A DNA stretch of 64,000 nt from Niallia sp. Man26. GTDB lineage: Bacteria > Bacillota > Bacilli > Bacillales > Cytobacillaceae. The stretch is taken from the NCBI RefSeq assembly GCF_022049065.2, contig NZ_CP095743.1:1565001-1629000 (forward strand), in the 5' to 3' direction. The stretch's first letter is position 1. Every line of letters begins with the position of its first letter. Of the stretch, positions 13,007-46,143 are shown one piece after another. The notes under the pieces are model-generated. The model saw nothing but the letters and a program-made list of their open reading frames with translations, searched no databases and was not told the origin of the DNA. The position numbers and the translations under genes were made by a program.

Positions 13007-13042
13007 GTTAGTAACAAAGCAGAAAGGGATGATGGGTGGACG

Positions 13043-13218
13043 ATGATTATCTAATCTTATTTTATTTAGCCTGAAATGCATATTTGCAAATCAAACTAAA
13101 ATAGGATTAGTCTGCCCATTTTCTATCTATACGTATCAATAAGTCTTACAAGGCTTATTTGGTCATGCTTAAAATGTTCGGCTAATCCTTCCAAAATTAC
13201 TTTTGGGAGGATTTTTTT
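13043..13218 (+). promoter_or_regulatory. Ribosome-sensing transcription attenuator
   Basis: A mini-ORF (ATG ATT ATC TAA, 13043-13054) overlaps the first arm of a 14-bp hairpin, 13051-13064 with 13097-13110. The second arm's AGGATTAG (13103-13110) can instead pair with CTAATCCT (13182-13189), which overlaps the 5' arm of a terminator (13186-13196 with 13201-13211, then seven T). A ribosome arrested on the mini-ORF would block the first hairpin, free AGGATTAG to invade the terminator and allow read-through. This is the logic reported for vmlR-type and Listeria lmo0919-type ABC-F genes. The exact mini-ORF start is uncertain. Confidence 0.75.
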
Positions 13219-16172: not shown

Positions 16173-17186
16173 TTATTTTTGTTTTTTTGCAAGTAAATTA
16201 CGGTCGATGTTATGCGGTGGCTTGTCCATCCAATTGTGCTCGATTAATAGATTTCCGCCGTCCTCTGCATAGTTTGAAGTTTCCACCATTAGCCGAAGAT
16301 AGATAGAACCAAGGTCATGGCGCGGACTAACTGCAATAGAATCACCAAAATTTCGTAATTTTGCAGAAGACAGATTGCTGATATGAAAAAGCATCAGTTT
16401 TTCAGAGTAGGGCGCTGTTTGGGATGTGGTGATATTAAATTGACTTGGCATTGTCAATGGCAAGTCTTCTGACTTTAGTACATTGGAAAATACGGAATTT
16501 TGTTTAATATTTATATGCTTGCCTCTTATAAAATAGTTGCTGATATCCTCTGATTTTGCGACTTGGCTGAAACCGAGCAGCAGCACGGTTTTCATCGTGT
16601 TGAACTGGATATTAGCAAATAATTGTGAAATTTCAATACCTGTTAATGGCCTTTTATCACCAAAAAAGCCATTAAAAAAGCTTTGCCGTTGAACCATTTC
16701 AGCAGCATCCATCGCAGGTATATTCGGAGGCCGCACATGAATCCCCATTTCGTGCATTAACTCTGTCACCTGATTGGAAAGAGTAGCAGCGTCCCTCATG
16801 ATTTCGACAATAAATTGACGTATATCTAATCTTGATGTATTAGGCAAGGTAATGCTGTAAAAGATAATTCCCAACTTATACATCATGTCTATGTACTCAA
16901 GATAAAACTCATCAGAAAACAGCCGTGGTGCGGAAAGATTTACATCTTTTTCTGCTGAAAAACCGACAGGAAGAGGGATATTATCTGCTTGGAATAAAAT
17001 GGTAACACGATTAATGATTCTTTGGCTTAAAACATCACTGTCTTTAATAATTGCCTTGATTCTTTTATCCTCCACATTTGTTAAAAAAGGCTGGAACATA
17101 CAGTGAGACATCGTGTTTGCTATATAAAAGTTCCATAAATTTCCCTGTTCAGCACTTGTTAGCGGTGGTTTGTTAAGTTTCGTCAT
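16173..17186 (-). CDS. DUF3231 protein, paralogue 2
   Basis: 337 residues, with two DUF3231 units: PLTSAEQGNLWNFYIANTMS near residue 7 and PLTGIEISQLFANIQFNTMK near residue 180. The segment SFFNGFFGDKRPLTG between units is nearly identical to paralogue 1. It has no signal peptide and is helical throughout. Its role is unknown. A 39-residue acidic protein follows in the same unit. Confidence 0.85.
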   Translation of the reverse strand: MTKLNKPPLTSAEQGNLWNFYIANTMSHCMFQPFLTNVEDKRIKAIIKDSDVLSQRIINRVTILFQADNIPLPVGFSAEKDVNLSAPRLFSDEFYLEYIDMMYKLGIIFYSITLPNTSRLDIRQFIVEIMRDAATLSNQVTELMHEMGIHVRPPNIPAMDAAEMVQRQSFFNGFFGDKRPLTGIEISQLFANIQFNTMKTVLLLGFSQVAKSEDISNYFIRGKHINIKQNSVFSNVLKSEDLPLTMPSQFNITTSQTAPYSEKLMLFHISNLSSAKLRNFGDSIAVSPRHDLGSIYLRLMVETSNYAEDGGNLLIEHNWMDKPPHNIDRNLLAKKQK

Positions 17187-17399: not shown

Positions 17400-18850
17400 A
17401 TGATTGAAGTGCAAGGGAGATTTAACAGCGCCAAAGTTTTTACAGATAAAGTCGAAGAAACAGCATTGTCGCAAATTCAAGAGCTTTGCGATCAGGACTT
17501 TACAGAAGGAACCAAAATCCGGATTATGCCTGATACTCATGCAGGCGCAGGCTGTACAATCGGAACAACGATGACTATAACAGATAAAATTGTTCCAAAC
17601 TTAGTCGGGGTTGCTTGATGTTGGCCCAGACGTTAAACCACTCGCTCAATTGCTGGAACCCCTATTAGGGCAATCAGCAGCCAGAGGCTGTGGCAACATA
17701 GTCAAATGGTTCAGAGACTTGCACGCTAGTGGCAGATTTACGTGCAGAATTATTACCAAACCTTATAAATGATGGGATAATTAATACGGCGAGCCTGCGA
17801 TAGGAGCTGCCTAACTCCGATAACCGCAGAGAAGGTATAGTCCAAACTCTTAAGTAATTAGGAGAAAAATGTGATATCGGCTGCGGCATGGAAGTTGCCG
17901 TTATAAATAAAAATAAAACAGAAGTTAATTTCGATAAGCTCGATGAAATAATCCGCAAACATATTCCAAGCGGCTTTGCCACAAGGGAAAGCAGTCAATT
18001 CCATCCGTATTCCAAAAAAATTGATTTTCGTAATGTGGTCGCGCCTTTTAACTTGAAAAGAGCTAAATCATCAGTTGGAACTTTAGGTGGAGGTAACCAT
18101 TTTGTTGAGTTGAACGAATTAGACGATAAAATTGTGATTGTCATCCACTCTGGTTCAAGAAATTTAGGCAAGGTAATTGCAGAGCATTATCAAAACTTAG
18201 CATATAATGAGCTGTTAAGTTTGCAGGAAGAACGCCAAACGCTGATTAATGAATTGAAAGCAGAAGGCAGGGAAAGGGAAATTGAAGAAGCGTTAAAAAG
18301 CCTTAAAAGTCCTTTCATTAAAAAGGATCTTGCTTATCTTCAAGGAAAAAGCTTTGATCATTATATGAATGATATGAAAATCGCGCAGCATTATGCACTT
18401 TTGAATCGTAAAGCAATGGCAGAAGAAATTGTCTCCCGTATGGGCTGGGAAATAGCGGACAGCTTTACAACGATTCACAATTATATTGATATGGAACAAA
18501 TGATTCTCAGAAAAGGGGCAATCTCTGCCAAAAAAGGGGAAAAAGTAATCATTCCAATCAATATGCGTGATGGCAGCTTAATTGCAATCGGTAAAGGTAA
18601 TGCAGAATGGAATGAATCGGCTCCTCATGGTGCAGGCAGATTAATGTCAAGAACGAAAGCAAAAGAGATGGTGTCATTGACAGAATTCCAGGATTCAATG
18701 AAGGAAGTATGGACGACTTCTGTTAATGAAAGCACATTAGATGAGAGCCCGATGGCATACAAGCCAATGGAGGATATTATTAGACATAGTGTTGATACCA
18801 TTGAAATTATGAAGGTTATTAAGCCTTTGTATAATTTTAAGGCCAATTAA
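17400..18850 (+). CDS. rtcB: RNA-splicing ligase RtcB, interrupted by a group I intron
   Basis: The gene is join(17400-17611, 17872-18850), 396 residues after splicing. RtcB joins 2',3'-cyclic phosphate and 5'-OH RNA ends using GTP and Mn2+. Exon 1 carries MPDTHAGAGCTIGTT and PNLVGV. Exon 2 continues DIGCGMEVAV with the Asp/Cys metal ligands, GGGNHFVEL, VIHSGSRNLGK and the guanylylated His in APHGAGRLMSR. Unspliced mRNA would give a 72-residue fragment ending at a TGA just inside the intron. Exon lengths (212 and 979 nt) restore the frame exactly. The ribosome binding site GAGGAGGG precedes ATG 17400. No rtcA or archease gene is adjacent. Confidence 0.9.
17612..17871 (+). ncRNA. Self-splicing group I intron in rtcB
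   Basis: A 260-nt intron with all four conserved core elements in order: P CAATTGCTGGAAC (17647-17659), Q AATCAGCAGCC (17672-17682), R GGTTCAGAGACT (17708-17719) and S GAAGGTATAGTCC (17831-17843). P7 is GACT 17716-17719 with AGTC 17839-17842. P3 is CCACT 17638-17642 with AGTGG 17728-17732. P5 is CCCT/AGGG. GCACG/CGTGC at 17721-17745 makes a peripheral helix. Exon GGGU (17608-17611) pairs with the guide GCCC (17624-17627) with a U-G wobble at the 5' splice site, and the intron ends in G17871. There is no homing endonuclease ORF. Confidence 0.92.
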
Positions 18851-18898
18851 AACCAAAGAAAAAGAAGGATTGCGCTTGTAATCCTTCCTTTTCTTTGG
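18849..18898 (-). terminator. Terminator of the 17-residue peptide gene
   Basis: Long imperfect inverted repeat, 18853-18871 with 18880-18898 (CCAAAGAAAA...TTCTTTGG), followed on the minus strand by TTTT. On the plus strand no T-tract follows, so it mainly terminates minus-strand transcripts. Confidence 0.55.
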
Positions 18899-18910
18899 AG
18901 AAGATGACCT

Positions 18911-18964
18911 TCAAAAAAACACATCTACAAGCAATATGCCTAACCCGATCAAAAAGATAATCAT
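18911..18964 (-). CDS. Possible 17-residue hydrophobic peptide
   Basis: ATG with a GAGGGGAG ribosome binding site opens MIIFLIGLGILLVDVFF and then stops, directly before a minus-strand terminator. The peptide is one membrane helix. It resembles in size and character small regulatory membrane peptides such as KdpF or CydX, but no family is recognised and the reality of expression is uncertain. Confidence 0.4.
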   Translation of the reverse strand: MIIFLIGLGILLVDVFF

Positions 18965-19085
18965 TTAATCAGCTCCCCTCTTTAAAAGGAATACTACATC
19001 ATATGACAAAAGGGAAAAAACTAATGTAACGAGAGTGGAAATTTTACTAAAAATACATAATTCTTTTGATAAAAAAGCAAAGTGT

Positions 19086-19139
19086 CCCTTATGTTTATCG
19101 CCATGATTTAAGCTCTTCATACATAAGGGGAAGGAAAAA
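19086..19139. repeat. Inverted repeat of unknown role
   Basis: CCCTTATGT (19086-19094) and ACATAAGGG (19131-19139) are perfect complements, separated by 36 bases. It lies in a 300-base gene-poor stretch that contains no recognisable gene other than the small peptide at 18911. Confidence 0.35.
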
Positions 19140-19170
19140 GGGGAGTCTAGCTGGATTCATAGGAGGTTAC

Positions 19171-19218
19171 GCTTAAGCATGCACCCCAAAAAAGGTGCTT
19201 GCTTAAGCATGTTTTTTA
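19171..19218. terminator. Terminator of ykuS-like gene
   Basis: GCTTAAGCATGCACC (19171-19185) pairs with GGTGCTTGCTTAAGC (19194-19208) with one mismatch. Minus-strand transcripts enter it right after the YkuS stop codon; a T-run is also present on the plus strand. Confidence 0.6.
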
Positions 19219-19461
19219 TTTGTTTGTTCTTTGTGCTACTTGCTGACATACTTCATCAGCAGAAAGGCCGTTTGCCTCAATAACAGAGCCTTGTATTTGT
19301 GTGTCCTGCATGCCCATTACGTTAGAATCAATTCCTGAGACAACACAGCAATCACAGTTTTGTGCATCAGACTCTTGCTTTAAATCAATCACCTCATGCC
19401 CTTGTTCACGGAGAGCCTCTGAAATATTTGTTAGTGATTGTTCTACACCAATTCTTGCCAT
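19216..19461 (-). CDS. ykuS: UPF0180 family protein YkuS
   Basis: An 81-residue protein matching the YkuS/UPF0180 family: [29 protein letters not shown], then the paired Cys in [20 protein letters not shown] and the C-terminal [16 protein letters not shown]. The function is unknown; the Cys pair suggests redox or metal chemistry. The start at 19461 is chosen over 19479 because GGAGGAGGTGATAC stands directly upstream. Confidence 0.88.
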
Positions 19462-19619
19462 ATGTATCACCTCCTCCAAAAAGTAAGTTGTCCTAAAACA
19501 ACAGAATTATTCTAAGTGAAACTAAACTGAAAAATCTGATATTTAAAAGGAGGAATTTAACAGGATAAACAGAATAAAGAGATATTGGCATGAAAAATAA
19601 TTTTTGGTGGTGGCAATAG

Positions 19620-20123
19620 TTGAACAAACCAATTGTGGAACTATTTCGGCAAAAGCATCAAGCTGAAGTGGTTGACTTGATATTAACGATTCAGCAAACA
19701 GAATATAATATCCCTATTACAAAAGAAGACCAGCCTGATTTATTGATGATAGAAACATTTTATCAAAGAGGAAAAGGCAACTTTTGGGTTGCTCGTAGTG
19801 AGGAGAAGGTAGTTGGTACCATTGCTTTACTTGATATCGGCAACAGCCAAGCTGCCTTAAGAAAAATGTTCGTGCATAAAGATTATCGCGGCGCAGGCTA
19901 TAATACAGCGAGACTTTTGTTGGAAAATGCCCTTGCTTGGGCAAAGGAAGTCGATATTTTAGAAGTTTACCTTGGCACTACGCCTCAGTTTTTAGCAGCT
20001 CATCGCTTTTATGAGAAAAACCAGTTTACAAGTATTGAGCTGGCCGAACTGCCTAAGGCCTTTCCGCTTATGGAGGTTGATAAGAAGTTTTATAAGTATA
20101 AGGTAGAAGAGCACGCAATATAA
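19620..20123 (+). CDS. GNAT family acetyltransferase
   Basis: A 167-residue N-acetyltransferase. The acetyl-CoA motif is visible as ALRKMFVHKDYRGAGYNTARLLLENALAWA, with the preceding strand VVGTIALLD and the C-terminal TTPQFLAAHRFYEKNQF. The substrate is unknown. The start is TTG with a weak site (GGTGG). A strong bidirectional terminator follows the stop codon. Confidence 0.87.
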   Translation: MNKPIVELFRQKHQAEVVDLILTIQQTEYNIPITKEDQPDLLMIETFYQRGKGNFWVARSEEKVVGTIALLDIGNSQAALRKMFVHKDYRGAGYNTARLLLENALAWAKEVDILEVYLGTTPQFLAAHRFYEKNQFTSIELAELPKAFPLMEVDKKFYKYKVEEHAI

Positions 20124-20161
20124 GAAGCTGCCGATTTTTTGACGGCAGCTTCTCTTTTTTT
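20124..20161. terminator. Bidirectional terminator
   Basis: GAAGCTGCCG (20124-20133) pairs with CGGCAGCTTC (20143-20152), then TCTTTTTTT on the plus strand. It lies between converging genes. Confidence 0.85.
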
Positions 20162-21074
20162 ATAGTTGGACAGATTGAGCGTTCTGCCGTTTAAAAGCAG
20201 ATAGAAGCAGAATGACACCGATAATGCAGGCTGCGCCAAGCCATTGAAATAAGCCAAATGGCATGTTGAGCCAAAAGACCGTCGTCAACACAGCCGCAAG
20301 CGGCTCAATGCTGCCTAACAAGCTGGATTCTTTCGGCAATAGTGACTCTAAACTTTTTATATAAAACCAAAAGGCTATCATTGTGCCAAACACAATCACA
20401 AACAATAAATAACCAATGGCTGCACTAGGCAGTTCAGCAGGTGCTGTCTTCCACACAGGTTCTAACGTATTTAAGCAAAGTCCCCCGATTATCATCGCCC
20501 AGCCGACAATTACCATAGAATCAAACTTTTCCAGCAAGCGTCCAGCACTTAAAGTATAAAAAGCAGCCGCTATTCCAGAAAGCACACCCCATACAACAGC
20601 TTGAACAGGAACAGAAAGCTCGGAAAAAGAACCATTTGTCAGCAGAAGAAAGCAGCCGCCTAATGCAAGTGCGGCAGAATATCCGTCTAGTTTAGACAGC
20701 CGCGCTTTTTTGGTTAAAAGATAATATATCATAATCATGATTGGTGCTAAATACTGCAGCAACGTAGCAACAGCTGCATTGCCATGATTGATGGCTGCCA
20801 TATAAGTATACTGAACGGCCAGCATCCCAAAAAGGGAAAAGGCAATCAATCGGAAAGCGGATTGAGGACTCTTCCAAACAGCAATAATTTGACTGCGCTT
20901 TTTGCTAAAGGCTGTCAGCAAAAGCAGCATTAAGCCAGAAAGCAGCAGCCTTACGACAACTAGCCAATTTACATCGATTTGATAGGTTTGAAAGAGCTTC
21001 TGGGCAACTGTGCCGCCGACTCCCCAAAAAGCAGCACCTGTAATTACAAAAAACAAACCTCTATTTCTAGTCAT
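20160..21074 (-). CDS. EamA/DMT family transporter
   Basis: A 304-residue protein with ten membrane helices as two EamA repeats: [19 protein letters not shown] at the start of repeat 1 and [24 protein letters not shown] at repeat 2, the latter ending in [19 protein letters not shown], a DMT hallmark. Members export amino acids or other metabolites. It is divergent from an AraC regulator (99 bases between starts), which is the probable controller. Confidence 0.9.
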
Positions 21075-33983: not shown

Positions 33984-34120
33984 CCTTCGATACTAGCAAA
34001 CTTATTGAAAAATAAGGACGCAAAGCTATGGGTCTAAAGCAGTGGTTAAGCTGCAATGATTGCCAGGTTGCCGAAAAGGAGACAGATACCAATCCATCCT
34101 TTTTCGGGTGGATTTTTTTT
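33984..34120 (+). promoter_or_regulatory. Cyclic di-GMP-I (GEMM-I) riboswitch and terminator
   Basis: The conserved GEMM-I aptamer elements appear in order: TAGCAAAC (33994-34001), stem CTTATT-GAAA-AATAAG with a GNRA loop (34001-34016), GGACGCAAAGC (34016-34026), GGGTCTAA (34030-34037) and TGCCAGGTTGCCGAA (34061-34075). An expression platform follows: an 8-bp terminator stem at 34092-34113 with eight T (34113-34120). Ligand binding would set read-through into the ketoacyl synthase-like operon. Confidence 0.93.
34092..34120 (+). terminator. Riboswitch-controlled terminator
   Basis: ATCCATCC (34092-34099) pairs with GGGTGGAT (34106-34113, one G-U), followed by a T8 tract. It lies between the c-di-GMP aptamer and the gene at 34147. 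Confidence 0.85.
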
Positions 34121-45808: not shown

Positions 45809-46110
45809 AAAAAAAATCTCACCTCCAAGGATAATATCCTTGGGGACGAGACTCCTTACAAGTTTAGAAGTTCGTGGTACCACCCCAGTTTATTTCTGTG
45901 TTACCACAGAAACCTTTCAAGTACAACACAGCCATTAAATGGAATGTTTATACTATTCTCTTTAACGGGAGAAAACCGGCACATAATCAATATCAGAACG
46001 AAATATCCTATATGCTGCTCTAAGGCTTGTTTCAGTGTACCATTACATCCTCCATTTCCAGCAACTGGAGTTCTCTGTTATGCTTTTGCACACTTACTCT
46101 TCTCTTCAAT
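45809..46110 (-). promoter_or_regulatory. T-box riboswitch (probable Thr specifier)
   Basis: On the minus strand the order is: stem I with loop-E AGTAA (46093-46099 region), distal loop AGAGAACTCCAGTTGCTGGAAATGGAG, the specifier strand CTGAAACAAGCC, the T-box TGGGGTGGTACCACG (45873-45887) and a terminator (45809-45850, T8). The variable UGGU expects a tRNA with discriminator A, which speaks against Asn (AAC). ACA followed by A, as at other specifier loops, suggests threonine. Assignment of the amino acid is tentative; the T-box itself is clear. Confidence 0.92.
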
Positions 46111-46143
46111 GCATTTATTAATGGAGATTATACATTAATTAAC

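Follow-up and report, generated by a model that had tools for sequence, protein, structure and literature searches.

The rtcB locus and its insertion

The window, a stretch of 64,000 nucleotides from the chromosome of Niallia sp. Man26, carries an rtcB gene on its forward strand at 17400-18850 that is split within codon 71 by a 260-nt insertion (17612-17871). The 5' exon (17400-17611) runs through codon 70 and two bases into codon 71, while the 3' exon (17872-18850) begins with the last base of that codon and, by translation, Pfam match and motif alignment, continues into Asp72 and Cys75. Joining the exons gave a stop-free translation of 396 residues that matched the Pfam RtcB family (PF01139) in two stretches with 229 bits (cut-off 27; 1.7e-67). 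Asp72 and Cys75, which we take to be metal ligands of RtcB, lie within the motif GVDIGCG, which aligns with GYDINCG of PH1602. Left unspliced, the 5' exon reads into an in-frame TGA at 17616-17618, the second codon of the insertion, and both residues are lost. Downstream of the gene, a terminator-like hairpin (18864-18887, forward strand) was called by pattern match only.

Intronless rtcB genes from three congeners (G002, G005 and G006) occupy the same chromosomal locus, as judged from flanking DNA, and align to bases 1-212 and 474-1449 of the window gene with a single base between the two blocks. Because the blocks lie one base apart, the window gene has exactly 260 nt extra. The boundaries were placed at 17612-17871 since the 5' splice site must follow a U and the intron must close with a G, and since this placement gives a P10 of nine pairs. 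These are the limits that the earlier note had proposed for a group I intron in rtcB, and its statement that removal joins the exons in frame was borne out. A prophage location for the window gene was considered and judged unlikely, as the flanks at 16173-17171 and 17873-20313 are common to intronless congeners.

Both exons are under strong purifying selection. By the NG86 method, dN/dS was 0.054 between the window gene and that of RL56, its nearest relative and also intron-bearing. Comparisons to the three intronless congeners gave 0.044-0.059, and values were low in each exon; dS is about 1-2 and near saturation, so these ratios are rough. With dN/dS around 0.05 in both exons, splicing is very likely. 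Across 40 rtcB loci stitched from tblastn matches, no stop was found within the exons, and 386-396 of the 396 positions were covered in all but two; L044 (257 positions) is cut by the end of its locus, L054 is frameshifted, and the outgroup-like L017 fell within the range. Not all members of this set are distinct, intronless loci are included, and the known broken genes of G001 and G004 were left out.

Structure of the intron RNA

The insertion matched the Rfam group I intron model (Intron_gpI, RF00028) with 48.4 bits; the E-value was 3.2e-11 when 701 bases were searched and 6.2e-11 for the genome as a whole. The curated gathering cut-off of this model is 50 bits, and a default Rfam scan misses the rtcB intron because its score is 1.6 bits under that value. 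The earlier note had suggested this covariance search and had named a score below threshold as grounds for dropping the claim; the match was found, but the score, taken literally, falls on the wrong side. In our view, the E-value together with the comparative evidence counts for more than the 1.6-bit shortfall.

Free folding of the RNA recovered P1 with its U-G pair, P3, P4, P5, P6, P6a, P7.1, P7.2, P8 and P9, although the fold energy by itself was unremarkable (z -1.73; 12 of 200 shuffles folded equally well). A structural alignment of 12 sequences, one of them the window's, had 92.3% of 936 cells paired under the structure drawn from the window. Both sides had changed in 20 of 79 pairs, compared to a mean of 8.9 in 500 shuffles and to 4-9 for structures slid by 1-3 columns, a control that favours the structure because it was taken from the window. 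The covariation score was 0.221 versus 0.141, while the number of further pair types in this alignment was not above that of shuffles (50 versus 47.8).

P1 (17604-17631) pairs exon bases 17604-17606 and 17608-17611 with an internal guide at 17624-17627 and 17629-17631; all of its cells are paired in the 12 sequences, with UA/CG covariation at one pair. The U17611-G17624 wobble that marks the 5' splice site is present in 12 of 12, and the TGA described above lies in the P1 loop. P3 joins 17641-17646 to 17788-17793, with a both-side change from GC to AU in 2 of 12 sequences. P4 (17651-17656 with 17674-17679) is invariant, the last pair of P5 (17660-17663 with 17667-17670) forms in just two sequences, and P6 and P6a follow at 17680-17710. 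The P7 pseudoknot, which holds the guanosine-binding site, pairs 17714 and 17716-17719 with 17839-17843 and is formed and invariant in all 12. Since P4 and P7 never vary, they are silent on covariation either way.

Between P7 and P3 lie two hairpins that are both present and covarying: P7.1 (17721-17745), with both-side changes in three of five pairs and an inner extension that is not conserved (58.3% paired), and P7.2 (17748-17782). Two such hairpins in this position are the mark of subgroup IA, and we describe the rtcB intron as IA-like. P8 (17795-17829) shows both-side changes in six of nine pairs, and the P9 hairpin (17847-17864) aligns poorly among relatives (67.5% of cells paired). At the 3' splice site, a P10 guide strand at 17617-17623 fits 3' exon bases 17872-17878, giving nine contiguous pairs with wobbles included, while only one of the two P9.0 pairs forms in the window copy. 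The P3-P8 core with its guanosine site is thus present, P3, P5, P6a and P8 covary, and the insertion is confirmed as a group I intron by its structure. The conserved core with P7 and P3 pairings, the U-G pair in P1, the terminal G (G17871) and the lack of an endonuclease ORF had all been noted beforehand, and each held up.

Distribution in bacteria and viruses

A pattern search for the intron across genomes of 84,980 species, a set that may leave out the window's own genome, returned 10 loci, all in rtcB at the same site, and two viral contigs (L054 and L055) carried it at that site as well. The records of all 12 loci bear the names Niallia, Gottfriedia or Bacillus, and the one from N. nealsonii is truncated. 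The earlier note could recall no group I intron in rtcB; the same intron interrupts the gene in genomes of 10 other species (one copy truncated) and in phages. Among 397 genomes of the order, 13 gave a DNA match and nine, including the window's, a long intron match; the other eight long matches were confirmed as rtcB, and the remaining ones (G041, G121, G131 and G152) were weak, at 32-41 bases. One distant search of PLSDB returned no plasmid copies.

Within the genus, the intron is patchy and not fixed, contrary to what the earlier note had entertained. An intact copy was present in three of 13 genomes (the window genome G000, G010 and G011), while G004 holds a truncated copy that is missing everything from mid-intron to near the end of the gene. 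Seven genomes have an intact intronless rtcB, G001 has an intronless gene with a broken frame, and G003 gave no match, so that three of the 13 have a broken rtcB or lack the gene.

The two viral contigs are each 40 kb long. In L054, rtcB is frameshifted and sits at the end of the stretch near tail- and lysis-type genes, as read from ORFs only; from this context, a prophage may be a carrier of the intron-containing gene.

Phage copies and the HNH endonuclease

We found 640 phage records with RtcB matches. Six of the 60 listed have a split gene: three at the site used in the window (Bacillus phages CM1, Goe20 and Goe27) and five at a second site, with two phages split at both. The second insertion lies near codon 145 in five Bacillus phages (L035, L036, L037, L038 and L039), and its ORF in BSP36 matches LAGLIDADG_3.

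The introns of CM1, Goe20 and Goe27 share with the window copy the site after GTYGGGGT, the core, P7.1 and P7.2, and the early in-frame stop. They are 825-841 nt long, with the P7.2 loop enlarged by an ORF, whereas the window copy is 260 nt without one. By PHROGs, the ORF product is an HNH protein in CM1 (164 residues; 1.9e-22) and in Goe20 (170 residues; 8.7e-21); neither protein had a Pfam match at or above its cut-off. In a search of seven sequences, the intron of the congener B1-b2 retained the last 20-odd HNH residues (E 1e-6 and 4e-5), while the window intron had no recognisable HNH remnant. No copy examined outside phages had a full endonuclease gene. Relatives of the CM1 HNH protein occur at nine viral loci, none of them shown inside an rtcB intron. 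At two of these nine, a distant RtcB match lies beside the HNH relative (L092:3007-3498 and L093:3001-3447), and in L092 the HNH gene is free-standing, just upstream of that match.

In the stretches viewed, the records of CM1, Goe20 and Goe27 have split genes with no intron annotated. Goe20 and Goe27 belong to the Bastillevirinae, whose group I introns, according to a survey of that group, are mostly IA-like, often contain HNH genes and were spliced in 8 of 9 genes tested (PMC11878797). The host genes named in the survey's main text are those of DNA polymerase, terminase, thymidylate synthase and ribonucleotide reductase and not rtcB, and the word "ligase" is absent from it.

Evidence bearing on possible past homing

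A tree of rtcB with 38 rows required eight changes of intron state, at least five of them forced by well-supported branches; its deep forks are weak, and intron state is clustered. The comparison tree of introns was built from the 18 distinct copies less G388 and G286, whose cores were not matched by the pattern, with the truncated G004 piece added. The intron of B1-b2 is the nearest to the window's after that of RL56, yet the rtcB gene of B1-b2 groups with intronless Niallia genes. Around the insertion site, a 60-nt tract is 95.0% identical between the window and RL56 compared to 84.8% overall, with 12 of 1129 sliding segments as high; this tract was picked after the mismatches had been inspected, and the segment of best identity begins five bases further upstream. 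Compared with intronless G002, the window and RL56 show nothing unusual over this tract (0.833 and 0.817). The tree, the B1-b2 conflict and the conserved tract are consistent with past homing accompanied by co-conversion.

These observations bear on whether the intron could instead have been inherited vertically, from rtcB of a Bacillaceae ancestor with repeated precise loss, phages having taken the intron along with the gene. The window and RL56 do have the intron at the same locus, and it occurs in all 10 Gottfriedia-like rows of the rtcB tree, although it was the intron that led to those rows, which are thus a biased sample. Vertical descent accounts poorly for full endonuclease genes being found solely in phages among the copies examined, for the disagreement between gene and intron in B1-b2, and for the conserved tract around the site, and we regard it as rather unlikely. 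On the most plausible reading, the window intron descends from a mobile intron linked to phages, has no endonuclease and is lodged in a conserved motif suited to homing; homing into such a motif would explain the insertion site.

Proposed splicing and the function of the intron

The natural reading of this structure would be that splicing is initiated by guosine, as it is in group I introns elsewhere. The RNA would adopt the usual group I core, a guanosine cofactor would attack after U17611, and the freed 5' exon would attack after G17871, joining the exons and restoring Val71 before Asp72 and Cys75. The stop codon in the P1 loop may keep ribosomes off the core. A stop at this second intron codon occurs in 17 of 18 distinct introns, which fits a proposal, reported in PMC3984707, that ribosome stalling lets the intron core fold. 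The P7.2 loop of the ancestor would have encoded an HNH homing endonuclease, as it still does in Bacillus phages; in the bacterial copies examined, where the endonuclease gene is gone or reduced to scrap, the intron would be a passenger that the cell tolerates, we propose, because it splices. We place the probability at about 0.92 that the intron is spliced to restore RtcB and descends from a phage-linked HNH homing intron, a joint reading in which both splicing and past homing are inferred.

The intron might instead have been kept as a regulatory switch. If splicing efficiency, set by GTP level, translation, temperature or RtcB itself, determined the amount of ligase, then preservation of the ribozyme core in many species and in a window copy without an endonuclease gene would be accounted for, as would the widely shared early stop, and GTP-sensing has been discussed for phage introns in PMC11878797. 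A preserved core is nonetheless expected of any intron that needs to splice, and a switch of value to the cell sits badly with seven congeners that have an intact intronless gene and with the broken or absent gene in others of the genus. We therefore consider a regulatory role very unlikely. That the insertion is instead a dead relic in a pseudogene is scarcely credible: decay does occur among relatives, as in the G004 deletion and the frameshifts of G001 and viral contig L054, but the window gene has two intact exons under strong purifying selection, and the structural elements are complete.

The earlier note had also raised a feedback link between the ligase and the splicing of its own message. 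The transesterifications of group I splicing act through a 3'-OH, but the ends that RtcB seals are a 2',3'-cyclic phosphate or a 3'-phosphate on one side and a 5'-OH on the other (compare PMC3400036). The substrates of RtcB are therefore chemically unlike group I splicing intermediates, which also speaks against a switch governed by RtcB. We saw no evidence for such feedback, and with mismatched chemistries the idea was set aside. RtcB (PF01139) is the host gene and is unrelated to the mechanism of the intron.

Introns that may end in A

A terminal G is near-universal in group I introns. Parsed in frame with the conserved valine kept, however, 13 of the 18 distinct copies have a final A (GUA/C-GAY; L009, L033, L044-L048, L053-L055, L063, L065 and L069), while five, including the window copy, end in G. 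With the A-ending parse, both P9.0 pairs and two to four P10 pairs form in all 13, the U-G pair at the 5' site is retained, and P7 keeps its guanosine site without change. The alternative G-ending parse, which adds one tyrosine, forms none of these P9.0 or P10 pairs in the same copies. PH1602 has a tyrosine at the valine position, so the 3' junction in the 13 copies may lie elsewhere. On this comparison of parses, we would only tentatively suggest that the rtcB family includes natural group I introns with a final A, and we lean towards doubting it. If true, the second splicing step would tolerate A or have help, and the family would let the choice of 3' splice site be tested on naturally occurring introns.

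Other elements in the genome and window

The same genome holds a second group I intron of about 264 nt (57.3 bits; L001:1501-1772, corresponding to G000:C1:1709154-1709425 on the minus strand), which splits queF directly after the Cys of the FTSLC motif. Joining the queF exons gave an intact frame of 166 residues, with a Pfam QueF match in its 3' part. Less strong is a third group I match (25.2 bits; L003:1501-2014, G000:C2:188907-189420), which has part of a gene for the large subunit of ribonucleotide reductase on either side, a position that resembles known nrdE introns. An Rfam scan of the window also identified a c-di-GMP-I riboswitch (33985-34075, forward strand), a T-box leader (45839-46118, reverse strand) and the Bacillus sRNA ncr1575 (13011-13218, forward strand).

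Significance

The rtcB intron belongs to a well-known kind of element and is not unique to the window genome. Bacterial protein genes with group I introns include flagellin in a thermophilic Bacillus and recA and nrdE of Bacillus, as described in PMC3984707, whose main text does not contain "rtcB". These are likewise phage-like introns in chromosomal protein genes, though the host genes differ from rtcB. Full-text searches of the open-licence literature returned no title or abstract reporting an rtcB intron. With the present locus, rtcB joins the short list of chromosomal protein genes with group I introns. It also serves as a warning that annotation splits intron-bearing genes such as this one. 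At one site, shared by phages and bacteria, intron-plus, intron-minus, endonuclease-bearing, endonuclease-scrap and decayed copies together make a compact case of the mobile-intron life cycle.
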